Source: an uncultured Clostridia bacterium (GTDB lineage: Bacteria; Bacillota; Clostridia; Christensenellales; Aristaeellaceae). Taken from it: DNA of 43,292 nucleotides. Within the stretch, counting starts at the first letter, position 1. Every line of letters begins with the position of its first letter. Under the pieces are notes generated by a model. The model was not told where the DNA came from, made no database searches, and saw only the letters and a list, made by a program, of their open reading frames with translations. This document shows positions 1,547 through 22,968 of this stretch, piece after piece. The stretch is from the NCBI GenBank assembly GCA_947167215.1, contig CAMVHE010000020.1, forward strand, positions 1 to 43,292. Reading direction: 5' to 3'. The translations under genes and the position numbers were made by a program.

Positions 1547-1575
1547 TTCACATTTATGTCAGAATTCGATGCTAT
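1547..1575 (+). promoter_or_regulatory. Possible promoter of the VTC/DUF4956/beta-helix operon
   Basis: TTCACA (1547-1552), a 17-bp spacer and TGCTAT (1570-1575) lie about 45 bases before the ATG at 1622. The -10 is a poor match, so this is tentative. Confidence 0.35.
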
Positions 1576-1621
1576 CATTACGCCATCCTACAGGGAGACC
1601 TGTAGCAAGGAGGTCATCAGA

Positions 1622-2344
1622 ATGAGTTATACAGCAACTTTTGAACGCATTGAAAAAAAGCTTTTAATGACCGAAGATCAGTACCGGGCGCTGCTTCCCG
1701 TTCTGAGAAAATATATGTGCCCCGACATTTATTTCAGTTCCACCAACTGCAGCCTGTATATGGATACTCCGGATTTTCTTCTCGTAAGGCGCGCCCTTTC
1801 AAAACCGGAGTATAAAGAAAAGATGCGGCTGCGCAGTTACGGGGTTCCCGGAATGAATGATCCTGTTTTTCTTGAAATCAAGAAAAAGTATGACCGGATC
1901 GTTTACAAGCGCCGGATTTCCCTCGGAGCGGAAGATGCCATGAATTACCTAGAGAAGGGCATGGTACCAACTCCTTCAACCCAGATTCTGCGGGAGATTG
2001 ACTATATGCGCAGCCGTTACCAGCTGATCCCAGCAATGGTTCTCTGTTATGATCGTCATTCCTATGCAGAACGTGAGGAATCGGTCAACAGCCTGCGGAT
2101 CACCATTGACAAAAACATCCGTTATCGGATGGATCGCCTGGATCTCCGCAAGGGAGATGACGGGACGCTGCTGCTGGCTCCGGGGACCCGCCTCATGGAG
2201 GTAAAAACCACGCAGGCAATCCCCCTCTGGCTTGCACATGCCATGACAGAAACCGGCATTTCCATGACCAGCTTTTCCAAGTATGGCCATGCTTATGAGA
2301 CCGTCTCGGCAGCTTCCTCGCAGCATATCATTCTTTCCGCTTAA
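1622..2344 (+). CDS. VTC-domain (polyphosphate polymerase-type) protein
   Basis: A 240-residue soluble protein of the VTC family. In yeast the VTC tunnel domain makes polyphosphate from ATP; the activity of the short bacterial members is inferred. Visible signatures are the N-terminal RIEKKLLMTEDQY, the YFSSTNCSLYMDTPDF strand, basic tunnel residues in YKEKMRLRSYG, EIKKKYDRIVYKRR, and the late acidic strand LMEVKTT with FSKYGHAY. The start is set at 1622 because AGGAGG precedes it; an upstream in-frame ATG at 1556 lacks a site. It is followed after 31 bases by a DUF4956 gene and then a secreted carbohydrate-binding protein, a recurrent gene set in Firmicutes that suggests a surface-related rather than storage role. 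Confidence 0.85.
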   Translation: MSYTATFERIEKKLLMTEDQYRALLPVLRKYMCPDIYFSSTNCSLYMDTPDFLLVRRALSKPEYKEKMRLRSYGVPGMNDPVFLEIKKKYDRIVYKRRISLGAEDAMNYLEKGMVPTPSTQILREIDYMRSRYQLIPAMVLCYDRHSYAEREESVNSLRITIDKNIRYRMDRLDLRKGDDGTLLLAPGTRLMEVKTTQAIPLWLAHAMTETGISMTSFSKYGHAYETVSAASSQHIILSA

Positions 2345-2375
2345 TCAGTAATTGTCTATAGGAGGTATTCCCATC

Positions 2376-3044
2376 ATGTTTACCGCACTTTTTAATATGA
2401 GTAACGGCATGTCTCTTCAAAGTGCTTTCCTGCTCCTTGTCTTTGCTGCTGTCTGTGGTCTGATAATTGCAGCCACTGCCCTTCTGACGGGCCCATGCAG
2501 CCGTCATTTTGCAGGGGCGCTGGTTGTCCTTCCCATGATCATCCAGGTCGTCATCCTCATGGTTAATGGAAATATAGGGACCGGTGTAGCTGTCATGGGA
2601 GCCTTCGGGCTTGTCCGGTTCCGTTCCGCACAGGGATCTGCCAGAGAAATCGTTCTGGTTTTCCTCGCAATGGCGGTAGGCCTGGCAACCGGCATGGCCT
2701 ATGCCACTTATGCATTATTTGTTACGCTCATCATATGCCTTGTCATGGTTCTCATCTCCCGGATCGATCTTTCCGAAAAACTGCAGCCTCTCCATCTCCG
2801 GATCAGCATTCCGGAAGACCTGGATGAAATGGGCCTCTTTGACGATATTCTTTCCAAATACACCAGAAAAGCCACGTTTGAAGGAATCAAGAGCATCGGC
2901 ATGGGAACCGTCTTCGAGATGAATTATCAGATCATCATGAAGGATAACCGTCAGCAGAAAGCCATGATGGATGAAATCCGCGTCCGCAATGGAAACCTGA
3001 CTGTCGCACTTTCCCATAATACCCCCACCCACCAGAGCTTATAA
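2376..3044 (+). CDS. DUF4956 membrane protein
   Basis: A 222-residue membrane protein of the DUF4956 family. Hydrophobic segments cover residues about 15-35, 45-65, 70-80 and 95-125 (four helices, the third around the conserved FGLVRFRSAQGSAREIV block). The last 85 residues form a soluble domain. DUF4956 genes commonly sit next to VTC-domain genes; the partner function is unknown, possibly a membrane anchor or channel for the VTC product. The start is the ATG at 2376 with GGAGG 8 bases upstream; an in-frame TTG at 2352 spans the ribosome site and is rejected. Confidence 0.85.
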   Translation: MFTALFNMSNGMSLQSAFLLLVFAAVCGLIIAATALLTGPCSRHFAGALVVLPMIIQVVILMVNGNIGTGVAVMGAFGLVRFRSAQGSAREIVLVFLAMAVGLATGMAYATYALFVTLIICLVMVLISRIDLSEKLQPLHLRISIPEDLDEMGLFDDILSKYTRKATFEGIKSIGMGTVFEMNYQIIMKDNRQQKAMMDEIRVRNGNLTVALSHNTPTHQSL

Positions 3045-3072
3045 CAGGACCTGTTCGAAAGAAGGCGATCTT

Positions 3073-4764
3073 ATGAAAAAGAACTTTATTTCTGTTTTCC
3101 TTATTGGTATTCTATTCCTTTTCAGCTTATGCGGCCTTGCAGAAGACGATGACGGACTGTTCTCCATGAAGGACCTGACCATCGTTGATGCAGAGGACGC
3201 AGAAAAGATTGCGTTATCAGGAGAAAGCATTACGATAACGGAGGCCGGTTCCTACGTGCTTTCCGGAACCATCGAAGATGGAAGCATCAATATTGCCCTG
3301 GAAGAAAAAGGAACCGTATATCTTCTTCTGAACGGCGTTACTGTCAGCAACAGCCAGGGTTCGGCCATGACGGTAAGCGGATGCAGCAAGCTGATTCTTA
3401 CCTTGTGCCCCATGAGCGTCAATACGCTGACACAGGGCAGTGAAACCCCTGAAGCAGAGGATAATACGGCTGCCATTTACAGCAGCAGCGATCTTACCAT
3501 CACCGGGACCGGCACATTGGTTGTTAACGGAAATTATGAAGACGGTATCTACTGCAAGGACACTCTCCGTATTGTCGACGGCACCCTTGCCGTTACCGCT
3601 GAGCAGGACGGACTTGTCGGCAAAGACTCCCTGATCGTCGGCGGCGGTACCATCACCGTTGCCACATCGAACGGCGATGCCATCAAATCTACCAAAAAGA
3701 ATGATGAGGAAAATGGCAATGTCATTATTGCCGGCGGCGTCATCAACCTGTCTACCGGCAATGGAGCTTCCTCTGTCGTCCACACGGCTGAAAATCCCTT
3801 CAACAACATGATGACAGACAGCTCCACCACTTCGGAAGATTCTGTCAGTCTGAAAGGCCTCAAGGCACAGAATACCATCAATATTTCCGGCGGCACCATT
3901 ACCATCGACAGTGAAGATGATGCGATTCACAGTAATAACAATATCATAATTTCCGGCGGAACCATTTCTATCGCTTCCGGAGATGACGGTATCCATGCGG
4001 ATAATACCCTTACACTTTCCGATGGAATCATCGATATCACGGAATCCTATGAAGGCATCGAAGCTACCGATATCATTCTCAGCGGCGGAACCCTCTCGAT
4101 TGTCGCCTTTGATGATGGTATAAACGGAGCGGGCGGAGATTCCGCCAGTGACAGCTCTCAGGCATCCGGGAATATGGGATTCGGAAGGATGGATATGTTT
4201 TCCACCTCCACCGGTACCCTGGAAGTCTCCGGAGGAAACATCCTGGTTTACTCCAATGGTGACGGCATTGATATCAACGGAAACATCCAGATGACCGGCG
4301 GTTCCGTTTATGTGGCAAGCACTTCTTCCGGTGCCAATGCGGCCCTTGACTATGACGGAAGCTTCACCCTTGTCAGCGGTACTGTTGTGGCTGTAGGCAG
4401 CTCCGGAATGGCTCTTGGTGTCAATGATCCTTCCATTCCCGGCGCGATGCTGACCGTATCCGGCGGAGATCTTTCCGTTTCCGATTCCAGCGGCAACAAT
4501 TTGCTCTCTTTTTCCAACCTGGGCAGCTATAATTCAGCCGTCCTGTACAGCGATCTCTTCACCGAGAATGAAACCTACCTGGTCACAACGGGAGCAAACA
4601 CACAATCGGTTCAGATGACTACCACCGCTACGACCGGCTTCTCCATGGGCGGCTTTGGCGGCGGAGGTCGCGGAGATTTCGGAAGATGGGACAATACAAT
4701 GAATAATCAGCAGAACGGGAATCCCTTTGGAAATGGTCAGAGACCCGGCGGTTTTCGACGTTGA
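3073..4764 (+). CDS. Secreted carbohydrate-binding beta-helix protein (DUF4353/Cthe_2159-like)
   Basis: A 563-residue exported protein. Residues 1-23 are a signal peptide (MKKN, a hydrophobic core, cleavage near GLA-ED). Residues about 30-520 consist of repeated short strands of the type ISGGTITIxSxDDAIHSNNNI, typical of right-handed beta-helix folds; the Cthe_2159 family it resembles binds acidic polysaccharides. Repeated DDGIH/DDGIN turns offer Asp clusters suited to Ca2+ binding. The C-terminal 45 residues are Gly/Asn/Arg-rich with no LPXTG motif or transmembrane anchor, so attachment may be by charge. It is the third gene of the VTC operon (28-bp gap) and is closed by a terminator. Confidence 0.85.
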   Translation: MKKNFISVFLIGILFLFSLCGLAEDDDGLFSMKDLTIVDAEDAEKIALSGESITITEAGSYVLSGTIEDGSINIALEEKGTVYLLLNGVTVSNSQGSAMTVSGCSKLILTLCPMSVNTLTQGSETPEAEDNTAAIYSSSDLTITGTGTLVVNGNYEDGIYCKDTLRIVDGTLAVTAEQDGLVGKDSLIVGGGTITVATSNGDAIKSTKKNDEENGNVIIAGGVINLSTGNGASSVVHTAENPFNNMMTDSSTTSEDSVSLKGLKAQNTINISGGTITIDSEDDAIHSNNNIIISGGTISIASGDDGIHADNTLTLSDGIIDITESYEGIEATDIILSGGTLSIVAFDDGINGAGGDSASDSSQASGNMGFGRMDMFSTSTGTLEVSGGNILVYSNGDGIDINGNIQMTGGSVYVASTSSGANAALDYDGSFTLVSGTVVAVGSSGMALGVNDPSIPGAMLTVSGGDLSVSDSSGNNLLSFSNLGSYNSAVLYSDLFTENETYLVTTGANTQSVQMTTTATTGFSMGGFGGGGRGDFGRWDNTMNNQQNGNPFGNGQRPGGFRR

Positions 4765-4969: not shown

Positions 4970-5273
4970 ATAAAACGCTTTCTTTCCCTGCTCCTCAACC
5001 GTCGATGAAAGCGCCATCATGGTGAATACCTCCGACGCCGCGACCCTTATCAATCCAACCATCACCAGGAGCGGAGATTCCGATGGCGGAGACAGCTGCA
5101 ACTTCTACGGGCTGAACGCAGCTTTGCCGGTCATGGGCGGTTCCACCACCACCATTACCAGCGGATCAGTCCACTCCGCGGCGAATGGCGCCAACGGCTT
5201 TACGCTTTTGGTAAACGGTATCCCACAGCTGATACATACGCTTTCCCCCATCCGCGTTAACCCTCGCGGCTGA
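4970..5273 (+). pseudogene. Decayed beta-helix adhesin-like gene
   Basis: This is a remnant of a relative of the intact gene at 7619-8773. A good ribosome site (AAAGGAG, 4956-4962) is followed at 7 bases by ATA instead of ATG (4970-4972), and then by codons giving KRFLSLLL, the start of a signal peptide, which hits a stop in that frame. The rest of the signal peptide is missing. A second frame then reads STVDESAIMVNTSDAATL and onward to a GANG motif near 5190, aligning with residues about 20-95 of the intact protein (SAVEVCGTD..., NATGVFAYDQG). After GANG a further frameshift moves the expected YAFG into another frame. At least two frame disruptions, a lost start codon and loss of the C-terminal two thirds make function unlikely. 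Confidence 0.75.
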
Positions 5274-5329
5274 GTTTTCCTTCCGTATTCCTTTCAGGAA
5301 GCATCTTCCCCCAATTAACTTCGCAATAT

Positions 5330-5358
5330 ACCCCGTTTTTTTCCTCCGCACTTTCGAA
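5330..5358 (+). promoter_or_regulatory. Candidate SigI promoter driving sigI-rsgI
   Basis: ACCCC (5330-5334) and CGAA (5355-5358) are separated by exactly 20 bp, with seven T early in the spacer, ending 44 bases before the sigI start. ACCCC-type -35 and CGAA -10 elements are the reported SigI signature in Bacillus and Clostridium. The same arrangement recurs at 7377-7405. This implies autoregulation. Confidence 0.7.
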
Positions 5359-5402
5359 TATACTGATGCAACCAGGCCAGGCTTCGCCTTCCTTCTCTAA
5401 GA

Positions 5403-6167
5403 ATGACTTCGGATATCAAGAAAGGACCGTCCAAAGTGGAGTCGAAACAAACACCCGATCTGCGCGCACTGGAAGCGCAGAAAAATGAGGACGTCATGAA
5501 CCAGTTTGTCGATGAAAACAAAGATTTCATCAAGCGCTGCGCTTCCGTCGTCTGCAAGCGTTTTATCACCGACAGCGATGAAGAATATGAGGTTGCCCTG
5601 GTAGCTTTCTGGGAAGCAGTGCGACATTATAACGCCCAGGCTGGCAGCTTCCGTTCCTTCGCATCGCTGGTTATCCGCAGAAGACTCCTGGATTCCTTTG
5701 ACAGCAAATCCCGACGTCGTCAGGAAATCCCTGCCGGCCATTCCATGACCTGGGACGATGCAGAGGAGACTTCCGGAGGCATCATGACCGAAATCCAGCG
5801 GTCAATTGTTCAGAAAGCCGAGGAAGACCCTCAGACAATCCGGGATGAAATTCAAGATTTGAGTGAAGTACTGAAAGAATACGGCTTCTCCTTTTTCGAT
5901 CTGGCCGAAGCTTCTCCCAAAGCACTGAAAACAAAGAAATGCTGTGCAAAGGCAGTCAACTGGATGCTCGCTGTTGCAGAGCGGATCCTTCAAATGCGAA
6001 AAACACACAGTCTTCCAGTCGCAGCAATCTCTCTCGCTCTTTCCATTGCAAGAAAGATTCTTGAACGTCATCGCCGGTATATTATTGCTGCAACTGAAAT
6101 TCTGGACGGAGACTATCCACATTTGGCGGAATACATGGATTACATCAGAAAGGAGCGGGAAGAATGA
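5403..6167 (+). CDS. sigI: RNA polymerase sigma factor SigI
   Basis: A 254-residue alternative sigma factor of the SigI family. Region 2 (residues about 35-100) is clear: EYEVALVAFWEAVRHYN and GSFRSFASLVIRRRLLDSFDS match the core-binding/-10-recognition helices. Region 3 is absent. The C-terminal part (about 145-250) carries the SigI-type helix-turn-helix (LPVAAISLALSIARKILERHRRYI). In Bacillus and cellulolytic Clostridium, SigI directs wall-stress or polysaccharide-degradation genes and is held by RsgI. The stop overlaps the rsgI start by 4 bases (ATGA), indicating translational coupling. The ribosome site is weak. Likely self-activated from the promoter at 5330-5358. Confidence 0.9.
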   Translation: MTSDIKKGPSKVESKQTPDLRALEAQKNEDVMNQFVDENKDFIKRCASVVCKRFITDSDEEYEVALVAFWEAVRHYNAQAGSFRSFASLVIRRRLLDSFDSKSRRRQEIPAGHSMTWDDAEETSGGIMTEIQRSIVQKAEEDPQTIRDEIQDLSEVLKEYGFSFFDLAEASPKALKTKKCCAKAVNWMLAVAERILQMRKTHSLPVAAISLALSIARKILERHRRYIIAATEILDGDYPHLAEYMDYIRKEREE

Positions 6168-7336
6168 AAGCAGTTGTAATGGAGACCCGGAAAAACGAGG
6201 CAGCTGTCCTCCTGAAAGACGGAACTTTCCGCAACATCAAGGGAAAATACAGTGTTGGAGAAATCATTGATATTCCTGAAAGGAAGCATTTCTTCCAGCC
6301 AAAGCGGATAGCTGCCGCCGCTGCCGTTATTCTCATGGTCAGCACCGGAGGCGGATTCTGGTACGACAGAAACTATGTGGCATATGCTGAAATCAGTATG
6401 GATGCAGATTCTTCCATCGTCTACACGGTTAACAAACGCGGTCAGGTACTCGAAATCAAAGCGGTAAATGAGACAGCTTCTGATGTCGTGAACACTTTGA
6501 ACAATGCTGGAATCCGCTTCATGCCCATCTCAGAAGCCATTGAAAAAACCATTACCGTCTTTGCAGAGGAAGGAGCTCTTGATACAGAAAACGATGACTA
6601 TATTCTGATGAATGTATCTTCTGACAACGGCAACCTTCAGGAAAAACTGACTTCGGAAATTGAAAACGGCATGGTTCATGCAATGGAAAAGGATCCCTCT
6701 CTGGAGTATCGCATTGATCATTCGGACCGCGCAACTGCAAAGCGTGCCCGGGATAATCACATGAGCATCGGCCGTTATGCTGTCTGGGAGCGTGAAGGCG
6801 GTGAACGGGAGCCTGCGGAATTTGCTGAAATGCCGGTCCGGGAAATGCTGGGAAAACCCGATGATCCTGCTTCTGCTCCTTCCAAAGATAATCCAGTACA
6901 GGAAACCGATGGAAATATAAGTGCTGATCCTGTTGAGAGCCTATCAGATCAGAGCCGAACAGATTCTCCGGACCCGCAGCCATCAGATATACAGGCACCT
7001 AAAACTCACACGGATTCTTCTGTAACAACCGATCCCCGGACTGACACTTCCGGACAAATGCAGTTAACCACTCCTCCTGCAAATTCTGCCATGGAGGTGC
7101 CGCCTTCCTCTCCGGTAATCCCCAATGATTCTTCCTATCTCAGCGTCCAGTCATCCCCCGATACTGTTGGCCCATCCTTCCCGGATTTTCCTTCTGGAGA
7201 TACAGACTTCTCCCCTGAGCACAGCAGTCCTGAACAAAGTTCAACCTCCTCCTTTAGAAGAGAACAGGGAGATGGGATGATAACAGAAAATCATGATGAT
7301 GCACCCAATGCCCAGGAAAATCCACCAGCTCGGTAG
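6164..7336 (+). CDS. rsgI: Membrane anti-sigma factor RsgI with disordered outer tail
   Basis: A 390-residue anti-SigI factor. Residues 1-47 are the cytoplasmic RsgI_N domain (KAVVMETRKNEAAVLLKDG). Residues 48-66 are one transmembrane helix. Residues about 70-205 form the juxtamembrane outer domain (YVAYAEISMDADSSI...). Residues about 215-390 are Ser/Pro/Asp/Thr-rich and almost certainly disordered, with no carbohydrate-binding domain such as those in Clostridium thermocellum RsgI proteins. In B. subtilis a disordered RsgI tail is needed to sense wall defects, which fits. Oddity: at the place where homologs read Asp-x-Asn-Pro-Ser, the site of self-cleavage, this protein reads Asp80-Ala-Asp-Ser-Ser84, so Asn-Pro is missing. 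Confidence 0.87.
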   Translation: MKAVVMETRKNEAAVLLKDGTFRNIKGKYSVGEIIDIPERKHFFQPKRIAAAAAVILMVSTGGGFWYDRNYVAYAEISMDADSSIVYTVNKRGQVLEIKAVNETASDVVNTLNNAGIRFMPISEAIEKTITVFAEEGALDTENDDYILMNVSSDNGNLQEKLTSEIENGMVHAMEKDPSLEYRIDHSDRATAKRARDNHMSIGRYAVWEREGGEREPAEFAEMPVREMLGKPDDPASAPSKDNPVQETDGNISADPVESLSDQSRTDSPDPQPSDIQAPKTHTDSSVTTDPRTDTSGQMQLTTPPANSAMEVPPSSPVIPNDSSYLSVQSSPDTVGPSFPDFPSGDTDFSPEHSSPEQSSTSSFRREQGDGMITENHDDAPNAQENPPAR

Positions 7337-7343
7337 TCTTCTC

Positions 7344-7375
7344 TCCGTTCACAAAAATGTGAACGGATTTTTTTT
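7344..7375 (+). terminator. Terminator of sigI-rsgI
   Basis: A 10-bp perfect stem (TCCGTTCACA / TGTGAACGGA) with an AAAA loop is followed by eight T, just past the rsgI stop. The -35 of the next candidate SigI promoter begins right after the T run. Confidence 0.9.
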
Positions 7376-7376
7376 A

Positions 7377-7405
7377 ACCCCATTTTTTTTACCTGCAAAT
7401 CCGAA
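7377..7405 (+). promoter_or_regulatory. Candidate SigI promoter for the beta-helix gene
   Basis: ACCCC (7377-7381) and CGAA (7402-7405) are again exactly 20 bp apart with a run of T just after the -35, matching the sigI promoter base for base in its key positions. It would make the secreted beta-helix protein a SigI target. The transcript would have a leader of about 200 bases. Confidence 0.65.
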
Positions 7406-7411
7406 TCAGAT

Positions 7412-7618
7412 AATGTAAGGTTAAAAAAAACAGGGCACCGAAAAGCAAGAACCGAAATTGCCCCTATCTCTCTTCGACGGATGCTTCCGGGTTTTCGTTC
7501 CTCCGTACGAAAACCTTTGAATGGGATGAGATCGATTCATGCAGGTTCATCCTGTTCAGGAAGTGGATCCGTTTTCACATTCTCTGTTTCTTCAATCATC
7601 ATGAAAGGAAAATCAGCC
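7412..7618 (+). other. Long 5' leader with hairpin
   Basis: The roughly 200 bases between the candidate SigI promoter and the ATG at 7619 contain a perfect 9-bp hairpin (GGTTTTCGT 7490-7498 / ACGAAAACC 7507-7515, 8-base loop) and a weaker long-range pair (GGGCA 7433-7437 / TGCCC 7459-7463). No known riboswitch was recognised. The hairpin lacks a T run, so it is not a standard terminator. Confidence 0.4.
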
Positions 7619-8773
7619 ATGAAAAAATATCTGTTTGCCATACTTGCATTGATCTTCATCGCCTCCAGTGCTTTTGCTGAAGATAATACTTACACGGCAG
7701 CTCTGGAAGATCAGAGTGCCGTAGAGGTATGCGGTACGGACAATGTCACTATTCAGGACGCGGTTATCCGCAAAACAGACGGCAGTGCTTCCAGTGCAGA
7801 TTCCGCCAGCTTCACCGGAGTGAATTCGGCCGTCCGGGTTTACGATCAGGGAAAACTATCCCTCTCAGATTCCGTCATCGAGTCCAGCGCCCAGAATGCA
7901 ACCGGCGTATTTGCATATGACCAGGGGATCATCTTCCTCTCCAACTGCATCATAAACGTCACGGGCGGAGGTGCAGGCGGTGTTCAGGTTGCCGGAGGCG
8001 GAACACTTTACGGGAGTGAGCTCTCCGTAACCAGTGCCAGCAAAGCAGCCATTCGCTCAGACCGCGGCGGCGGCACGATCCTTCTTGAAGGCGGCACCTA
8101 TACATCCACCGGAAAGAATGGCTGTCCTGCCATATACAGTACGGCGGATATCACCGTAAGTAATGCAACCTGCATTTCTGAGCAATCCCGTGCGGTGATC
8201 ATTGAAGGAAAAAACAGTGTAACCCTGAACAATGTCATCATCGAGGGAAATGATCAATCCAGTAAAGCCGGAAGCATCCATGCCAATGTACTGCTGTACC
8301 AGAGCGCTTCCGGCGATGCGAAAGAAGGAACCAGTGTTTTCACCATGAACGGCGGTGAAATGACTTCCCAACACGGAGCCATGTTTTACTGCACCAATAC
8401 TTCCAGCGTAATCAACCTCTCAAATGCAGAGCTCCACCTGTCTGATACGGAAAAGCTGCTGATTGTTTCGTCCGGCCGTTGGGGTAAGGATGGCAGGAAC
8501 GGCGGCACCTGTACGCTGAATGCCACAGACCAGTTGCTGACAGGCTCCGTATTCGTTGACAGCATTTCTGAATTGACGATGAATCTGACGAATTCCAGTT
8601 TTACAGGATCGATCAACTCAGACGGAACCAGCGGAAATGTTCTGCTGACAATGGATGCGGAGAGCATATGGACCCTGACCGCCGACAGCTATCTGACTTC
8701 GTTCGAGGGAAACCTGCATCAGATCGAAACGAACGGTTATCACCTTTTCATCCAGGACGAACTGGTTCTGTAA
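7619..8773 (+). CDS. Secreted beta-helix adhesin-like protein
   Basis: A 384-residue exported protein. Residues 1-20 are a signal peptide (MKKYLFAILALIFIASSAFA). The rest is a parallel beta-helix of short strands and Gly/Asn turns, with family signatures GVFAYDQG, AAIRSDRGGGT, GGTYTSTGKNGCPAIYST, VLLYQSASGDA and MFYCTNTSS. It belongs to a family of uncharacterised bacterial surface/adhesin-like proteins; no catalytic residues are evident. The ATG at 7619 has AAAGGA 10 bases upstream and begins a textbook signal peptide; an in-frame start at 7481 is not supported. It follows sigI-rsgI and a candidate SigI promoter. A dead relative lies at 4970-5273. Confidence 0.8.
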   Translation: MKKYLFAILALIFIASSAFAEDNTYTAALEDQSAVEVCGTDNVTIQDAVIRKTDGSASSADSASFTGVNSAVRVYDQGKLSLSDSVIESSAQNATGVFAYDQGIIFLSNCIINVTGGGAGGVQVAGGGTLYGSELSVTSASKAAIRSDRGGGTILLEGGTYTSTGKNGCPAIYSTADITVSNATCISEQSRAVIIEGKNSVTLNNVIIEGNDQSSKAGSIHANVLLYQSASGDAKEGTSVFTMNGGEMTSQHGAMFYCTNTSSVINLSNAELHLSDTEKLLIVSSGRWGKDGRNGGTCTLNATDQLLTGSVFVDSISELTMNLTNSSFTGSINSDGTSGNVLLTMDAESIWTLTADSYLTSFEGNLHQIETNGYHLFIQDELVL

Positions 8774-16790: not shown

Positions 16791-16820
16791 TTGACAAATG
16801 AGGCTGTTTCATCGCATAAT
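16791..16820 (+). promoter_or_regulatory. Promoter of the Dlt-like operon
   Basis: A consensus TTGACA (16791-16796), 18-bp spacer and CATAAT (16815-16820). The leader of about 190 bases to the first gene contains a short stem GGCAG/CTGCC (near 16940-16960) followed at some distance by a T-rich stretch; a role in attenuation is possible but unproven. Confidence 0.6.
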
Positions 16821-17018
16821 ATAATCTGTTTGTCAGCTTAATTCAGAGACGCGCATACCTTCCGCGGTGTCTTAGCATGCCTCAGATCATGCGGTCTTCT
16901 CCCTGTGGAAAAGCATAATGTAGTTGCATTCTGCAATGGAGGCAGCATTTCCCTGCCTTCGGTTCTTCCTTTTTTACTGCACATTTTACACCATATTTTT
17001 TCCAGTGATGAGGTTTTC

Positions 17019-18557
17019 ATGTCTATTTTTCAGCTGATTGGCGTCGGTGTCGCTGCTGCTTTCCTGTACAGTCTCTGTCCCAGACGGATCAAATGGGTTT
17101 TCCTGCTGATTATCAGCCTTGCGTGGTATGCCTATTCCGGTATAAAAGCTCTGCCTTTTTTATTTGTCACTGCCTTTTCCACCTGGTTCGCTGCGAAGCA
17201 GATTTCTTCCATTTCGGTAAAAAGCAAAGAACGGATACGTTCCGAAGGATTGACTGGGCAGGCACGTAAAGAGTACAAAAACGCAGTCCGGAATCAGCAG
17301 CGCCATTGGCTGCTTGCTGCATTGCTTTTAAATTTCGGTCTGCTTGCCCTGCTCAAGTATACTCCGCCGCTCTTTGCCTTGATGGATCGCCCCATCGATC
17401 TCCTGCTTCCTCTTGGCATTTCCTTTTATACCTTTCAGTCCACCGGTTATCTTCTGGACGTTTATAATGCCAAAATACAGCCCGAACAGAACCCGCTGCG
17501 CTATCTCCTTTTCGTCTCCTTTTTCCCGCAGCTGATCCAGGGGCCGATTGCACGCTATGATCAGCTGGCTTCCCAGCTGAACGAACCCCATGAATTTGAC
17601 ATGGCACAGTTTGAGAAGGGACTTCTTCTCATTCTTTTCGGCTTCTTCAAGAAGCGCGTTATCGCAGACCGGGCCGCGCCTTTTGTTTCTGCTGTATTTG
17701 CAGATGCATCCTCTCAGGGAGGGCTTGTCATAGTCCTTGCAGTTCTCCTTTACTCGCTGCAGCAGTACTGCGACTTCTCCGGCGGCATTGACATTGTCAC
17801 AGGCATTGCAGAAATGATGGGGATTCGGCTCACTCCCAATTTCCGGCGTCCCTATTTTGCCGTCTCACTGGGTGACTTCTGGCGGCGCTGGCATATCAGT
17901 CTGGGATCCTGGATGCGGGATTATGTATTCTATCCCTTTGCACTGTGCGCACCGGTTGCCCGTCTTTCCAAAGCGCTGAAGACGAAGCATCCCGGTCTGG
18001 CAAGAACCCTGCCTGCAGCCCTCGGCAACATCCTTGTTTTTCTGTTAGTGGGTATCTGGCATGGCGCCCAGATGAACTATGTCCTGTGGGGACTCTACAA
18101 TGGCCTGATTCTGGCTGTTTCCGCTTTATTGGAACCGCAGTATAAGAGTTTTCAGACCGGACACGCATCCCTTGCCGCGAGTCCCGGATTCCATGTATTC
18201 CGGGTTCTCCGGACCTTCCTGATTGTAAACATCGGCTGGTTTTTTGACCGTTCCGAGCATGCACTGGATGCCTTCATCCTTTTCAAACGTACACTGACCG
18301 TTTCCGTTCCGGTAAACAGTGATCTTCTTCTCTCTCTGGGACTTTCTGCACGGGATACGCACATCCTCCTTTTTTCTGCCGTCCTGCTGCTGATCATTTC
18401 CCTTCTGGAAGAGCGCGGGGTTCCTGTAAGAGAGCGGGTTCTGGGACTTCACATTGTCCCCCGCTGGTGTCTCCTCTTTCTGTTTATTCTGTTTGTCGTC
18501 GCCACTTTCACCGGATTGAACCCGGAGAATTCCGGTTTCATGTACGCAGTTTTCTAA
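17019..18557 (+). CDS. MBOAT acyltransferase, DltB/AlgI-like
   Basis: A 512-residue membrane-bound O-acyltransferase. About eleven hydrophobic segments span the protein. The two conserved MBOAT histidines are present: H292 in FWRRWHISLGSWMRDYVF and H348 in GIWHGAQMNYVLWG, close in spacing to the pair in DltB. MBOAT enzymes of this type pass an acyl or aminoacyl group from a cytoplasmic carrier across the membrane to a surface polymer. The ATG at 17019 has GATGAGG upstream; in-frame starts further upstream would add an unlikely 38-residue extension. It opens a five-gene operon with SGNH-like, ligase, PLP-enzyme and carrier-protein genes. Confidence 0.88.
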   Translation: MSIFQLIGVGVAAAFLYSLCPRRIKWVFLLIISLAWYAYSGIKALPFLFVTAFSTWFAAKQISSISVKSKERIRSEGLTGQARKEYKNAVRNQQRHWLLAALLLNFGLLALLKYTPPLFALMDRPIDLLLPLGISFYTFQSTGYLLDVYNAKIQPEQNPLRYLLFVSFFPQLIQGPIARYDQLASQLNEPHEFDMAQFEKGLLLILFGFFKKRVIADRAAPFVSAVFADASSQGGLVIVLAVLLYSLQQYCDFSGGIDIVTGIAEMMGIRLTPNFRRPYFAVSLGDFWRRWHISLGSWMRDYVFYPFALCAPVARLSKALKTKHPGLARTLPAALGNILVFLLVGIWHGAQMNYVLWGLYNGLILAVSALLEPQYKSFQTGHASLAASPGFHVFRVLRTFLIVNIGWFFDRSEHALDAFILFKRTLTVSVPVNSDLLLSLGLSARDTHILLFSAVLLLIISLLEERGVPVRERVLGLHIVPRWCLLFLFILFVVATFTGLNPENSGFMYAVF

Positions 18558-18614
18558 GTCTGCAGTCTGTAAAACGGAAGCTATTCTTCTTCTTTTCAAG
18601 ATTCGGAGGCCTTT

Positions 18615-19967
18615 GTGTTTAAATCCATTCTCCGTTTTGTTCTCTTTTTTGTCCTGTTGGCAGGGTTACTGCTCTTTGCGGATTACAATCTGATAAAGAC
18701 GGACACCGTAACTGCCATCACCCTTCATGACTTTACTTCCAGAGATGATATGGAACTGGCCGTCGTGGGCTCCTCCGTTGTTCTTTATCATTTTAATCCC
18801 GAGATTCTGACGAAGGAAACCGGACTCAAAGCCGGGAACGTCACCGCGACGAATGTCTCCCTGCAGGGCTGTTATGCCCTTACACAGAAAATGTACAAGA
18901 CGAACCATCCGGAATGGGTCGTTCTGGTGGTGGAGCCCTATACCTTCAATTCGACAAAGGAAAGCACGGAATCCTGGTTTAAGATTTCTCCTTTCCTTCA
19001 GGATCCGGAGATTCTCCGACGTTATTATTTTTCCACCTGCAGGGAAGACGGTCAGTATATCGAAAGGGCCCTGACTTTCCGGACCATGTATCCCACGTCC
19101 CTGAAAGACCTTTCTAAAACCTGGGCACTGCGCCATCATCCCGAGGAAGCATTTGCCCGATACAGCGAAGATTTTGATGAAGGCTTTGAGTACATGGGCA
19201 ACGGCTACCTCCGCGTTTCGCAGGATAATGCGGAGCTCAGGGAGATTATCCGCACCAACATGTACAAACAGATTGCTCCCTATGATTATTTCCCTCTGCT
19301 GGATGGTTCCAAGGAAATGCTTCGCGAATACCGGGATCTGGTTGAGTCCCAAGGCTCCCATTTTATGGTGGCTGTCTGTCCTAACCATACTTCCCACGTT
19401 CTGGCAGAAGTCTCCTTTATTCCCTATACCGAGAGCCTGATGCATTTCTGCAAGGATGAAGGCATCCCCTGCTACAATTTCCAGTATGCCACACCGGAGC
19501 TGCTCCCGAATATGGATGAGACCTTTTTTGATCTCTACCATATGAACGGCGAAGGATCCGACACCCTTTCTGCAGCCTTCTCCCGGGTTTTCAACAAGGT
19601 CCGCGCAGGGGAAGATGTCAGCGATCTCTTCCATTACAACAGCTGGCATTATCTGCGGTCCATTGATTACATCGTCAACGCCTGGGTAATTCCCACGGAA
19701 GAGCCTGATACCTATCTTGCAGAATGCAATACGGGCAGCATTACCACACCACTGTACAGCTTCGTCCTCCGGGACGCAGAAGGCAAGGAAACGCTTCTGA
19801 GAGACTATGATCCGGATCCAAACTTTGTCTATCATCTTCCGGAAGGCTGTCAGCTGAGGGTATACGCACGTTCCGTTGAAAACCCGGATGCGCCGTCCGT
19901 CTATTATGATTACCCCGGTGATTACAACGAAGACTATTATCGGCTCCGCTACAATTATGATAATTAG
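18615..19967 (+). CDS. DltD-like/SGNH-type surface acyl-transfer protein
   Basis: A 450-residue membrane-anchored outer protein. Residues 5-22 form an N-terminal signal anchor. VVGSSVVLYHFNPEIL holds a Gly-Ser-Ser (52-54) in the nucleophile position and FFDLYHMN gives Asp306-x-x-His309, together the Ser/Asp-x-x-His set of DltD and related SGNH proteins. DltD acts with DltB in the last step of D-alanine transfer; the same pairing is inferred here. Residues about 335-450 are an added C-terminal domain, Tyr/Asp-rich and likely beta, not part of standard DltD. The start is a GTG with GGAGG 5 bases upstream. It is 57 bases after the MBOAT gene. Confidence 0.75.
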   Translation: MFKSILRFVLFFVLLAGLLLFADYNLIKTDTVTAITLHDFTSRDDMELAVVGSSVVLYHFNPEILTKETGLKAGNVTATNVSLQGCYALTQKMYKTNHPEWVVLVVEPYTFNSTKESTESWFKISPFLQDPEILRRYYFSTCREDGQYIERALTFRTMYPTSLKDLSKTWALRHHPEEAFARYSEDFDEGFEYMGNGYLRVSQDNAELREIIRTNMYKQIAPYDYFPLLDGSKEMLREYRDLVESQGSHFMVAVCPNHTSHVLAEVSFIPYTESLMHFCKDEGIPCYNFQYATPELLPNMDETFFDLYHMNGEGSDTLSAAFSRVFNKVRAGEDVSDLFHYNSWHYLRSIDYIVNAWVIPTEEPDTYLAECNTGSITTPLYSFVLRDAEGKETLLRDYDPDPNFVYHLPEGCQLRVYARSVENPDAPSVYYDYPGDYNEDYYRLRYNYDN

Positions 19968-19982
19968 CAGTTGAGGTATACC

Positions 19983-21515
19983 ATGTTCTATAACATTCTC
20001 GATTATTTTGAGGAAACGGTACGCCGGCATCCGGATTCTACCGCTTTCACCGATCCGGAGGAAAGCATTTCCTTTGAAATGCTCCAGCAGAAAGCACAGC
20101 GGGTTGCCGGGGCTCTGATTTCCCTGATTCCTTCCCGCAGCGTCATCGGTTTTTATCTCGATAAGGGAGTCCCCGCTATCGTCGGCTTTCTTGGAGCAGT
20201 CTATGCAGGATGCGCCTATTCCCAGTTAAATCCCAGGCTTCCTGTAGCACGCATTGCCGCCATGCTGGAGCATCTGGGCACGCCGGTGGCCGTAACCGAT
20301 TCGGAACACCGGGAAGACCTTCTGGCAACCGGTTACACCGGCAGAATTCTGCTCATTGAGGAATTGACAGCGGCAGATCTCTGTCCTTCCCTGCTGGATA
20401 CCATCCGTCAGAATATGCTGGATATCGATCCGCTGTATGTCAATTTTACTTCCGGCAGTACAGGAACGCCCAAAGGCGTGGTGGTATCCCATCGCAATGT
20501 CATGGACTTTATTCCCTGCTTCACGGAAATCTTCCACATCACCGAAGACGATGTGCTGGCCAATCAGGCTCCCTTTGACTTCGATGTTTCGGTCAAGGAT
20601 ATCTATTCCGGCCTCTTCACCGGTGCCCAGGTACTCATTATCCCCACGGCATATTTTACGCAGCCCGTCCGGCTCATGGATTACCTCTGCGATCACCAGG
20701 TGACAGTAATGGTCTGGGCAGTCAGTGCACTCTGCTTCCTGACCACCATGAACGCCCTTGATTACCGTAAGCCGGAAAAGCTCCGTGCGATTCTGTTTTC
20801 CGGTGAAGTCATGCCCATCAAACACCTCAAGAAACTGCAGAAGGCCCTGCCCGACATTACCTATGTCAATCTGTACGGCCCCACGGAGATAACCTGCAAC
20901 TGTTCCTATTACATTGTGGACCGGGAATTTGCGCTGGATGAAACCCTGCCCATCGGCATCCCCTTCCCCAATGAGCGCCTGATCCTGCTGGGAGACAACG
21001 ATGAAGCAGTCAGCGAGCCCGGCGGTATGGGTGAGCTCTGCGTAGCCGGTTCCTCCGTTGCTTTGGGCTATTACCGGGATCCTGAGCGTACCCGTCAGGC
21101 TTTCGTCCAGAACCCGCTGCATACCGACTATGATGAACGGATTTACCGGACCGGTGATCTGGTTCGCATCAATGAGCGGGGCGAATATGTCTATGTCACC
21201 CGGAAGGATTTCCAGATCAAGCACATGGGACACCGCATCGAGCTGGGCGAAATCGAAACGGCTCTGTCCGGGATTCCCGGAGTCAACCGTGCCGTCTGCC
21301 TTTATCTGAGTGACAAGGGGCGCATTCTTGCATTCATTGAAGGAGATGCCACCAAAGACGATATTGTTGCAAAACTCAAGGTTAATCTGCCGGAATATAT
21401 GATTCCCAATGTATTCACCACCGTTGAACAAATGCCGCTCAACAAAAACGGGAAAATAGACCGGCAGGCACTGATGACTTCCTACCTGGAAAGGAAGGGA
21501 AAACGTCATGGATAA
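19983..21515 (+). CDS. Amino-acid adenylating ligase, DltA-like
   Basis: A 510-residue member of the ANL superfamily that should activate an amino acid with ATP and load it on the carrier protein. Motifs: phosphate loop TSGSTGTPKGVVVSH (about 156-170), substrate Asp201 in PFDFDVSVKD, NLYGPTEIT, RTGDLVR, and the C-terminal NKNGKIDR lysine. The substrate Asp that binds the alpha-amino group in DltA is kept. However, where DltA has FCGE, with Cys269 (B. cereus numbering) involved in selecting D-alanine, this protein has FSGE (Ser273). The substrate may therefore not be D-alanine. The ATG at 19983 has TGAGG upstream; a TTG at 19971 covers that site. It overlaps the next gene by 8 bases. Confidence 0.85.
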   Translation: MFYNILDYFEETVRRHPDSTAFTDPEESISFEMLQQKAQRVAGALISLIPSRSVIGFYLDKGVPAIVGFLGAVYAGCAYSQLNPRLPVARIAAMLEHLGTPVAVTDSEHREDLLATGYTGRILLIEELTAADLCPSLLDTIRQNMLDIDPLYVNFTSGSTGTPKGVVVSHRNVMDFIPCFTEIFHITEDDVLANQAPFDFDVSVKDIYSGLFTGAQVLIIPTAYFTQPVRLMDYLCDHQVTVMVWAVSALCFLTTMNALDYRKPEKLRAILFSGEVMPIKHLKKLQKALPDITYVNLYGPTEITCNCSYYIVDREFALDETLPIGIPFPNERLILLGDNDEAVSEPGGMGELCVAGSSVALGYYRDPERTRQAFVQNPLHTDYDERIYRTGDLVRINERGEYVYVTRKDFQIKHMGHRIELGEIETALSGIPGVNRAVCLYLSDKGRILAFIEGDATKDDIVAKLKVNLPEYMIPNVFTTVEQMPLNKNGKIDRQALMTSYLERKGKRHG

Positions 21516-22683
21516 AGCAGAGCTTTCCTCCATCGTGCAGGAATACGGCACCCCCTGTTATCTTTTCGACACCGATGAACTGGCAGCCCGTATCGCAGGC
21601 TGCCGGGAAATCCTCCAGGACCGCATTCCGCTGTGCTATTCTATCAAAGCCAATCCCTTTCTGGTTCCCCGAATGGCCAAAGAGGTCCCTCTGCTGGAAG
21701 TCTGCAGTCCCGGTGAGTTTCTGATCTGCAAACAGTGCGGCGTTCCTGCCGGGGCCATTCTCCTGTCCGGAGTGAATAAAACGGAAGAAGATATAAAGGA
21801 AGCGCTCGCTTATGGGGTTCGCCTTTTTACTGCAGAATCCGTTTTGCACGCTTTCTTGCTGCAGAAATGTGCCGCAGACATGGGCATTCATGACCTTCCG
21901 GTTCTGCTGCGGCTGACTGCCGGGTCCCAGTTTGGCATGGACGAGAAGGACCTTCTCTCCCTGATAGAGCATGCGGAGGATTATCCCTCCCTGTACTTCT
22001 ATGGCATTCATTATTTTTCCGGAACCCAGCGCAAAAAGCTGACCAGCCAGCAGAAAGAGCTCGACAGGCTGACTGCCTTCTGCCATATGCTGGAAAAGGA
22101 AAAACACTTTTCGATCAAGCACCTGGAATACGGAACCGGTCTTTATTACCCTTATTTTGAAAATGAGGATTTCAGCGATACCCTTTCCCCTCTCCGAGAG
22201 CTTGCCCCCACGCTTTTTTCCGTTGCAGAACAGTTTCCGCTGACCATTGAGATGGGACGTTTCTTTGCTTCCTCCTGCGGCACGTTCCTGACCCGCGTCA
22301 TGGATACCAAGATCAATTGCGATCAGGGGTACGCCATTCTGGACGGCGGCATCCATCATCTCAATTATTACGGCGGCAACATGGGAATGCGGAAGCCGGT
22401 GATCACCCATCTGCCTTCCACAGACCAAACGGAACCCCGGGAATGGATGCTCTGCGGATCCCTCTGCACCACAGCAGACATTCTTGTCCGCGGCATGACG
22501 CTCTCCGGACTGGCTGCCGGAGATATACTGGCTTTCCATCACTGCGGTGCATACAGTGTCACCGAAGCGCCAGCGCTCTTCCTCAGCCGCCGTCTTCCTG
22601 CCATCGTCCTCAAGGAAAACGGAAACCTTCACCTTGCCCGCAGCGCACAGGAAAGTGCGTTTCTCAATTGTCCCATGAACTAA
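21508..22683 (+). CDS. Fold-type-III PLP enzyme (LysA/ODC-like decarboxylase)
   Basis: A 391-residue PLP enzyme with an N-terminal alanine-racemase-type barrel and C-terminal beta domain. Lys47 in LCYSIKANP is the PLP lysine; EVCSPGEF, IHYFSGTQ, EMGRFF, CGSLCTTADIL (active-site Cys loop) and GAYSVTEA follow in the order found in diaminopimelate/ornithine decarboxylases. It lies between ligase and carrier genes and overlaps the ligase, so it probably acts in the same pathway. Precedent: BtrK, of this fold, decarboxylates a carrier-bound glutamyl group in butirosin biosynthesis. Possible roles are decarboxylation of a free or carrier-bound amino acid, or racemisation. A plain lysA role is less likely in this context. 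Confidence 0.85.
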   Translation: MDKAELSSIVQEYGTPCYLFDTDELAARIAGCREILQDRIPLCYSIKANPFLVPRMAKEVPLLEVCSPGEFLICKQCGVPAGAILLSGVNKTEEDIKEALAYGVRLFTAESVLHAFLLQKCAADMGIHDLPVLLRLTAGSQFGMDEKDLLSLIEHAEDYPSLYFYGIHYFSGTQRKKLTSQQKELDRLTAFCHMLEKEKHFSIKHLEYGTGLYYPYFENEDFSDTLSPLRELAPTLFSVAEQFPLTIEMGRFFASSCGTFLTRVMDTKINCDQGYAILDGGIHHLNYYGGNMGMRKPVITHLPSTDQTEPREWMLCGSLCTTADILVRGMTLSGLAAGDILAFHHCGAYSVTEAPALFLSRRLPAIVLKENGNLHLARSAQESAFLNCPMN

Positions 22684-22699
22684 AAAAGGAGATTACATT

Positions 22700-22930
22700 A
22701 TGCTTGACACTATTCTTTCCCTTCTCGAAGACATTAAAGACGATGTAGATTTTGCCTCCTGCACCACCCTAATCGATGACGGAATTCTCTCTTCCCTGGA
22801 TATTATTCAGCTCATCGGTGCCCTGAATGATGAGTTTGATATTTCCATTCCTGCCACGGAGATCATTCCTACGAACTTTAACAGCGCTGCCGCCATGGAA
22901 GCCATGGTAAAGCGCCTTCAGGACGAATAA
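22700..22930 (+). CDS. Acyl/aminoacyl carrier protein, DltC-like
   Basis: A 76-residue acidic four-helix carrier protein. The phosphopantetheine site is the second Ser of DGILSSLDIIQLI (Ser34-Ser35-Leu). Length and the EFDISIPATEIIPTNFNS helix II-III stretch match DltC-type carriers. A strong ribosome site (AAAAGGAG) stands 17 bases after the PLP-enzyme gene. It is the last gene of the operon and should hold the activated group for the ligase, PLP enzyme and MBOAT protein. Confidence 0.9.
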   Translation: MLDTILSLLEDIKDDVDFASCTTLIDDGILSSLDIIQLIGALNDEFDISIPATEIIPTNFNSAAAMEAMVKRLQDE

Positions 22931-22935
22931 AAAAC

Positions 22936-22968
22936 AAAGCGGATCAGCTGATCCGCTTTAATTTTTTT
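22936..22968. terminator. Bidirectional terminator between carrier-protein gene and lon
   Basis: A self-complementary stem AAAGCGGATCAG/CTGATCCGCTTT with T-rich exits on both strands serves both convergent transcripts. Confidence 0.9.

Follow-up and report, generated by a model that had tools for sequence, protein, structure and literature searches.

A Dlt-like operon with a BtrK-like decarboxylase and a shuttle motif fused to its MBOAT protein in an uncultured Clostridia bacterium

Contig CAMVHE010000020.1 of an uncultured Clostridia bacterium (Christensenellales, Aristaeellaceae; draft assembly GCA_947167215.1, with an estimated contamination of 7%) was analysed over 43,292 nucleotides, a stretch referred to here as the window. 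It carries a five-gene operon encoding an MBOAT acyltransferase, a DltD-like SGNH protein, a stand-alone adenylating ligase, a fold-type-III pyridoxal phosphate (PLP) enzyme and a carrier protein (Table 1). The operon is real, and its genes stay together in many gut bacteria; it is very probably a cassette devoted to modifying the surface with amino-acyl groups, with a decarboxylase as an integral part. By kind it is an MBOAT-SGNH acylation system, widespread, and new in its parts and its chemistry. Its likely action is to charge the carrier with an acidic amino acid, take off one of the carboxyl groups and fix the product on the cell surface.

The operon and its relatives

All five genes lie on the + strand, with gaps, from the MBOAT to the carrier gene, of 57, 3, -8 and 16 bases, and the open reading frames (ORFs), their order and the 8-base overlap of ligase and PLP genes given in a preliminary description of this DNA are all borne out. 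That description also placed the operon under one promoter and one terminator. A strong promoter-like site is present, 198 bases separating its end from the ATG of the MBOAT gene. The operon shares with the convergent lon gene a terminator-like hairpin of bidirectional pattern. Both are pattern matches only. For the region as a whole, shuffling led to an expectation of 6.0 promoter-like and 6.8 terminator-like sites, and the scan found 7 and 15; weight is due only to the operon's two sites, which are strong and suitably located. The leader of about 200 bases upstream of the MBOAT ATG (16821-17018) holds a 9-pair terminator-like hairpin at 16937-16961, for which attenuation is possible, and an Rfam scan of the window returned zero matches.

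Table 1. Positions of the operon's genes and signals in the window, and of the comparison loci in which a ligase-decarboxylase pair or trio was found
Feature	Position	Strand	Remarks
Sigma-70-type promoter-like site	16791-16820	+	TTGACA-18-CATAAT; 11/12 matches; pattern only
MBOAT acyltransferase gene	17019-18557	+	512 amino acids (aa); GTG start at 16905 also open
Codons of acyl-shuttle hexapeptide FMYAVF	18537-18554	+	From translation; abuts MBOAT stop codon
Membrane-anchored SGNH/DltD-like acyl transferase gene	18615-19967	+	GSS and DLYH motifs; C-terminal beta domain
Stand-alone adenylating ligase gene	19971-21515	+	TTG start; ATG 12 bases inside
Fold-type-III PLP decarboxylase gene, BtrK-like	21508-22683	+	K47, C320-T321, Y287
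Acyl/aminoacyl carrier protein gene	22700-22930	+	Attachment Ser in ILSSLDII
Intrinsic-terminator-like hairpin	22935-22960	.	T-runs both sides; usable from both strands; pattern only
Ligase-decarboxylase pairs/trios with carrier (L167; L166; L168)	5160-8206; 5316-8131; 5596-8640		Paracoccus, Sinorhizobium, Streptomyces polysaccharide/metabolite loci

All relatives were found with the PLP gene as query. The operon is native to its genome, since 26 of the 29 genomes of the genus carry the PLP gene; relatives also occur in 8 of 150 genomes sampled from the family, 6 of 297 from the order and 14 of 391 from the class, samples that overlap and each of which includes the organism's own genome. In a species-level genome collection at least 576 stretches encode a PLP relative (E 1e-3), not all of them necessarily of this family. 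The best 80 of these, kept for comparison, are mostly from gut and rumen Clostridia, and include two Candidatus Ventricola, Erysipelotrichaceae, Coriobacteriia and one Treponema; named isolates among them include Gemmiger formicilis, Ruminococcus albus, Eubacterium ramulus, Butyrivibrio, Slackia exigua and Olsenella. This scattered distribution suggests horizontal transfer. Identical PLP sequences were merged, and leaving out the own genome's lysA-like stretches L084 and L085 took the count from 108 to 106 systems, made up of the window, 31 from the genome searches and 74 from the best 80. The residue table of the PLP enzymes retains L084 as a 107th row, its only R/E/H entry.

Linkage was counted in the 65 of the 106 systems whose PLP gene has 5.5 kb or more of sequence on each side, window included, as same-strand genes no more than 7 kb away. 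The ligase was found in 64, the carrier in 61, the MBOAT in 56 and the SGNH gene in 55, and 53 have the full set of five, so that chance neighbourhood can be rejected. Among the 44 systems with exactly one copy of each gene there are six orders (LIG, ligase; ACP, carrier): the window's own MBOAT-SGNH-LIG-PLP-ACP in 17, LIG-PLP-ACP-MBOAT-SGNH in 12, SGNH-MBOAT-LIG-PLP-ACP in 7, LIG-ACP-PLP-MBOAT-SGNH in 5, PLP-ACP-LIG-MBOAT-SGNH in 2 and PLP-MBOAT-SGNH-ACP-LIG in 1. Such constant content in shuffled order is good evidence for one function. Some loci surround a single ligase-PLP-carrier trio with extra SGNH genes (L068, L072, L081, L082) or with second MBOAT-SGNH pairs (L132, L133, L142), as if several acceptors shared one donor.

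A Dlt-like machinery with a fused acyl shuttle

The MBOAT protein matches PF03062 in Pfam (72.4 bits, E 5.4e-20) and has a G-x-WHG motif that is kept in all 80 full-length relatives, and it falls below the DltB equivalog cut-off of NCBIfam (171.5 vs 375 bits). Its C-terminus is the acyl-shuttle motif FMYAVF. A tail of the form Y-x-x-[FY]-end is found in 85 of the 85 complete MBOAT C-termini among the systems, a count from which four tails at contig ends and three fragments of broken reading frames were left out; 65 of the tails read FxYxxF, 9 begin with Pro, and the remaining 11 either start with a different hydrophobic residue or end in Tyr. In the accessible text of PMC12148441, the acyl-accepting Tyr of DltX sits in a C-terminal FXYXXF motif, which is also described there for PatA. 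Six canonical dlt loci of the same class, drawn from 17 with a DltA match of at least 483 bits and two of them from one genus, all encode a separate protein of less than 70 aa ending in FxYxxF, together with a DltB that is without the tail. Near the 108 systems, only four ORFs of 70 aa or less end in F-x-Y-x-x-F, and there are none in the window: two (L081, L111) resemble MBOAT tails cut off by a contig end, one (L063) reads through a stop, and the last (L126), of 30 residues, is unexplained. The preliminary description was therefore correct that no DltX-like peptide is present, and missed the explanation: as read from the protein sequences, the 'missing' DltX is a shuttle motif fused onto the MBOAT C-terminus.

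The SGNH protein had zero matches in Pfam and NCBIfam at E 0.001, and its kinship emerges from an AlphaFold model built from 26 aligned relatives (mean predicted local distance difference test score, pLDDT, 93.4). The 12 best fold matches of the model in the PDB are all DltD (E 9.5e-7 to 8.9e-5, at template-modelling (TM) scores of only about 0.34-0.44), with SGNH-type hydrolases among the other matches below them. All 26 rows of the alignment agree at G52, S54, H309 and G314, and by a looser pattern count the Ser motif is present in 89 of 100 SGNH proteins and the Asp-His motif in 75 of 100. The carrier matches PF00550, with its phosphopantetheine site, at 23.7 bits in Pfam, and the attachment Ser is present in 89 of 89 family carriers. 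The ligase matches PF00501 (216 bits) and the C-terminal domain of AMP-binding enzymes in Pfam, and exceeds the NCBIfam cut-off for general amino acid adenylation (TIGR01733) with 336.7 bits.

With dltXABCD, the system for D-alanylation of teichoic acid, the operon shares a stand-alone ligase, a carrier, an MBOAT protein, a DltD-fold SGNH protein and a Tyr-shuttle motif, whereas it differs in adding a PLP decarboxylase, in having the shuttle fused to the MBOAT protein with no separate DltX found, and in a basic ligase pocket. Its action would be Dlt-like, yet four tested Dlt features fail: the separate DltX, the DltB score, the DltA score (281.5 vs 476 bits for NF003417, 267 vs 559.85 bits for TIGR01734) and the DltC score (31.4 vs 68 bits and 20.6 vs 52.35 bits). 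A plain dlt operon is rejected because the proteins lie below these equivalog cut-offs, DltX is lacking and the pocket differs from that of six DltA proteins. In the class sample of 391 genomes, where up to three candidates per genome were scored, a DltA match of at least 483 bits occurred in 17 and passed the formal cut-off in 3; the PLP gene occurred in 14, own genome included, and both together in 0 against 0.6 expected, which is uninformative as to mutual exclusion with canonical dlt. The own genome gave zero DltA matches at E 1e-90 among the 3 of 12 candidates scored.

MBOAT-SGNH systems are sorted in two in the available part of PMC12148441 (2025): carrier-fed Dlt with its separate DltX, and acyl-CoA-fed systems, in which the motif is fused to the MBOAT protein and no carrier takes part. 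With the latter (PatA/PatB; alginate, cellulose) the window's system shares the SGNH partner and a long MBOAT protein with a fused FxYxxF tail (family median 527 aa vs 381-389 for DltB in four control loci), and it differs from them in bringing its own ligase and carrier. The donor is therefore most likely a carrier thioester and not acyl-CoA, and the cassette unites a Dlt-style carrier with a Pat-style fused shuttle. It is improbable that the ligase-PLP-carrier trio merely happens to lie next to an independent MBOAT-SGNH pair, the trio making a metabolite and the MBOAT protein using acyl-CoA. Such a division would suit the 7 of 65 loci in which the trio occurs without a same-strand MBOAT, the ligase-decarboxylase pairs or trios without an annotated MBOAT in polysaccharide loci of Sinorhizobium and Paracoccus, and the acyl-CoA use ascribed to fused-tail MBOATs (PMC12148441, as far as accessible), but a same-strand MBOAT lies within 7 kb in 56 of 65 loci, and six orders among 44 systems are hard to explain without shared function.

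The decarboxylase and the ligase pocket

The PLP enzyme matches the two Orn/DAP/Arg decarboxylase domains of Pfam (PF02784, 56 bits; PF00278, 48.4 bits; DAP, diaminopimelate). BtrK, of butirosin biosynthesis, comes first against the PDB both by phmmer, with 118.4 bits against 103.2 for the best DAP decarboxylase, and by Foldseek, with a TM score of 0.87 (model pLDDT 90.2) and LysA close behind, as by sequence. According to the accessible text of PMC7857480, BtrK converts a glutamyl carrier protein to a 4-aminobutyryl (GABA) carrier by decarboxylation. The PLP-binding Lys and a Cys (K47 and C320 of the window) are kept in 106 of 106 family members. The residue after the Cys is Thr in 99 and Ser in 7; it is Thr in BtrK and in the related carrier-linked enzymes of Sinorhizobium, Paracoccus and Streptomyces (4/4), and Glu in three LysA-type proteins, namely Aquifex LysA and two LysA-like proteins of the own genome. 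A column that is Arg in all three LysA-type proteins is Tyr in 106 of 106 family members (Y287 in the window). Of these residues the Cys has a catalytic role, and DAP is bound by the Glu and the Arg. The active site is thus BtrK-like and not LysA-like.

These residues bear on whether a DAP decarboxylase has simply moved into a Dlt-type operon, producing lysine or, if DAP were loaded at one end and decarboxylated at the other, a lysyl group. The lysA model of NCBIfam does match all 23 members scanned, but the window's enzyme reaches only 167.3 bits against an equivalog cut-off of 297.9, and both LysA marker residues are absent in 106 of 106 members, on which grounds LysA identity is rejected and the DAP reading considered quite unlikely. 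The own genome holds two better lysA candidates, at 292.6 and 253.3 bits, yet these too are below the cut-off. Lysine synthesis consequently need not depend on the operon's gene. Of these two candidates (L001, L002), one may have arisen by duplication and serve another function, or may come from the contamination.

The preliminary description left open whether the enzyme decarboxylates or epimerises. The first half of that statement is supported by the BtrK-like site and the second is disfavoured. A racemase or epimerase supplying a D-form for ordinary D-alanylation is very unlikely: alanine racemase has the same fold, but its alr model matches just 2 of the 23 members (best E 2.5e-6), the decarboxylase-type Cys is present in 106 of 106, and the ligase lies below both DltA cut-offs. 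Identity as alanine racemase is rejected on the first two counts. The dedicated fold-type-III decarboxylase posited in that description is supported, nearest to BtrK by sequence and fold and adjoining the ligase and the carrier in nearly all well-flanked systems.

Pocket positions of the ligase were set on GrsA numbering through the core motifs. The window's code is D-V-K-A-L-S-L-C-N, and at the position equivalent to GrsA 239 all 100 readable family ligases are basic (Lys 87, Arg 13), three unreadable codes and three systems without a ligase over 250 bits nearby having been left out of the 106. None of the six canonical DltA proteins is basic there (Ile, Ser, Ala, Thr, Met, Met), nor is any of seven other adenylating domains of the own genome, compared out of nine listed; two of these seven are acyl-CoA-ligase-like and align less surely. 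Contig C99 of the own genome also encodes a peptide synthetase of some 3000 aa in one frame, in which three or more adenylation domains lie (L175). A basic residue at 239 occurs in adenylation domains for glutamate, for aminoadipate and for iso-linked Asp or Glu. The family has two main ligase subtypes, D-V-K-A, mostly in the order LIG-PLP-ACP, and I-A-R (13/100), always in the order LIG-ACP-PLP and labelled Ruminococcus in 10 of 13 (L053, L126, L127, L130, L136, L138, L141, L144, L148, L154, L158, L162, L165); to judge by these codes the substrates of the two may differ. Two Oscillospiraceae loci, L159 and L160, have the deviating code D-A-K-A-C-V-L-G-I, with Lys239 still kept.

That the PLP enzyme acts first, on a free amino acid whose product the ligase then loads, is unlikely, although the surface group could be the same with no on-carrier chemistry. 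In its favour, most fold-type-III decarboxylases use small molecules (examples stand in the accessible part of PMC7857480), and in the PDB the matches that rank next belong to LysA-type enzymes. A basic pocket residue in 100 of 100 ligases, however, suits a substrate that still bears its second carboxylate, the nearest solved enzyme, BtrK, works on a carrier (same source, same part), and the related enzymes of Paracoccus and Streptomyces also adjoin carriers.

Several observations weigh against loading of an acidic amino acid and its decarboxylation on the carrier for export by the MBOAT and SGNH proteins. A literature search found no published support for Lys/Arg239 as a mark of acidic substrates; Lys239 also occurs in a domain that activates glutamate at the alpha-carboxyl, the product of which a PLP decarboxylase could not use; and the best decarboxylase-bearing analogues, of Sinorhizobium and Paracoccus, have Ser and Asn at this position. 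The I-A-R subtype is without Asp235, so that recognition of the amine is not uniform. The PLP enzyme is only about 27% identical to BtrK, and in a tree with 19 of the 106 members the family (support 56) groups with the carrier-linked enzymes at a support of 46, its place beside BtrK being weakly supported. Nine of the 65 well-flanked loci are without a same-strand MBOAT within 7 kb, two of them (L156, L157) having one on the opposite strand. The Ser motif is missing from 11 and the Asp-His motif from 25 of 100 SGNH proteins by pattern count, which leaves start-site errors or divergent members.

A proposed pathway and its meaning

From these features we infer the following substrate, order of steps and polymer. 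The ligase would adenylate an amino-dicarboxylic acid, most likely aspartate or glutamate, and load it through its side-chain carboxyl onto the phosphopantetheine arm of the carrier, with Lys/Arg239 holding the free alpha-carboxylate in the pocket; loading by the side chain fits best, because both the alpha-carboxylate and the amine must be free for the PLP enzyme to act. The BtrK-like enzyme would then strip the alpha-carboxyl on the carrier to leave an omega-amino acyl thioester, beta-alanyl or 4-aminobutyryl, from which the MBOAT protein would carry the acyl group across the membrane to the Tyr in the FxYxxF motif at its own C-terminus, and from there the DltD-like SGNH protein would transfer the group to a hydroxyl of a surface polymer. 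The whole chain, from loading through on-carrier decarboxylation to MBOAT-SGNH export of beta-alanyl- or GABA-type esters, seems to us slightly better than an even bet. As pointers to the polymer, the own genome offers 11 sulfatase-fold genes along with 8 MBOATs above the cut-off, none of them assigned.

Parts of this scheme have counterparts elsewhere. BtrI-BtrJ-BtrK of butirosin shares the carrier and the BtrK-like decarboxylase with its C-T motif and no DAP-binding Arg, and differs in that the window has an adenylating ligase, the loading enzyme of the BtrJ type being an ATP-grasp protein, and in that the proposed product would go to an MBOAT protein and not to an antibiotic. In the Streptomyces locus, too, an ATP-grasp-type protein (PreAtp-grasp, 75.7 bits) takes the place of the ligase. 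VinN-VinL-VinO of vicenistatin loads an aspartate-type acid by its side-chain carboxyl and then decarboxylates it on the carrier; the likeness lies in these two proposed steps, the difference in its belonging to secondary metabolism. The exosortase-A-associated pair (TIGR03098/TIGR03099) likewise sets a ligase beside a decarboxylase in polysaccharide loci, sometimes with a carrier, but has Ser or Asn at 239 and Arg at 331 in its pocket code, and no MBOAT or SGNH gene is annotated in the two regions read, where annotation is incomplete. The window's proteins are below both exosortase-A cut-offs (207.2 vs 592.35 bits for TIGR03098, 182.7 vs 478.45 bits for TIGR03099).

Elsewhere in the window, VTC-domain, DUF4956 and Cthe_2159-like carbohydrate-binding proteins are encoded in series at 1556-4764, perhaps as a polyphosphate-linked surface unit, and at 5403-7336 the gene for a Sigma70_r2 protein overlaps that for an RsgI-like anti-sigma protein.

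No paper describing the gene set was found in a literature search over titles and the starts of abstracts, with most subscription journals and preprints outside its scope, which makes this weak proof that none exists; the one paper whose accessible text brings MBOAT, SGNH and a decarboxylase together has a different subject. Whether surface acylation across the membrane has in this cassette a third class, carrier-fed, with an MBOAT-fused Tyr shuttle and on-carrier decarboxylation, by which gut anaerobes would put beta-alanyl or GABA esters on their envelope in place of D-alanyl, is in our judgement evenly balanced. It does cross the division between carrier-fed and fused-tail systems drawn in PMC12148441 (as far as its text is accessible), and it is present in the isolates Ruminococcus albus, Gemmiger formicilis and Eubacterium ramulus. 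The suggestion in the preliminary description that wall charge would be changed is weak on chemical grounds, because beta-alanyl and GABA esters bear one amine, the same as D-alanyl; what would differ is the pKa, the length and the stability of the ester. For an omega-amino acyl ester, should this be the product, chemistry would predict an amine that stays charged to higher pH and an ester that is maybe less labile than D-alanyl. If this is true, there would be consequences for the action of antimicrobial peptides and for sensing by the host.

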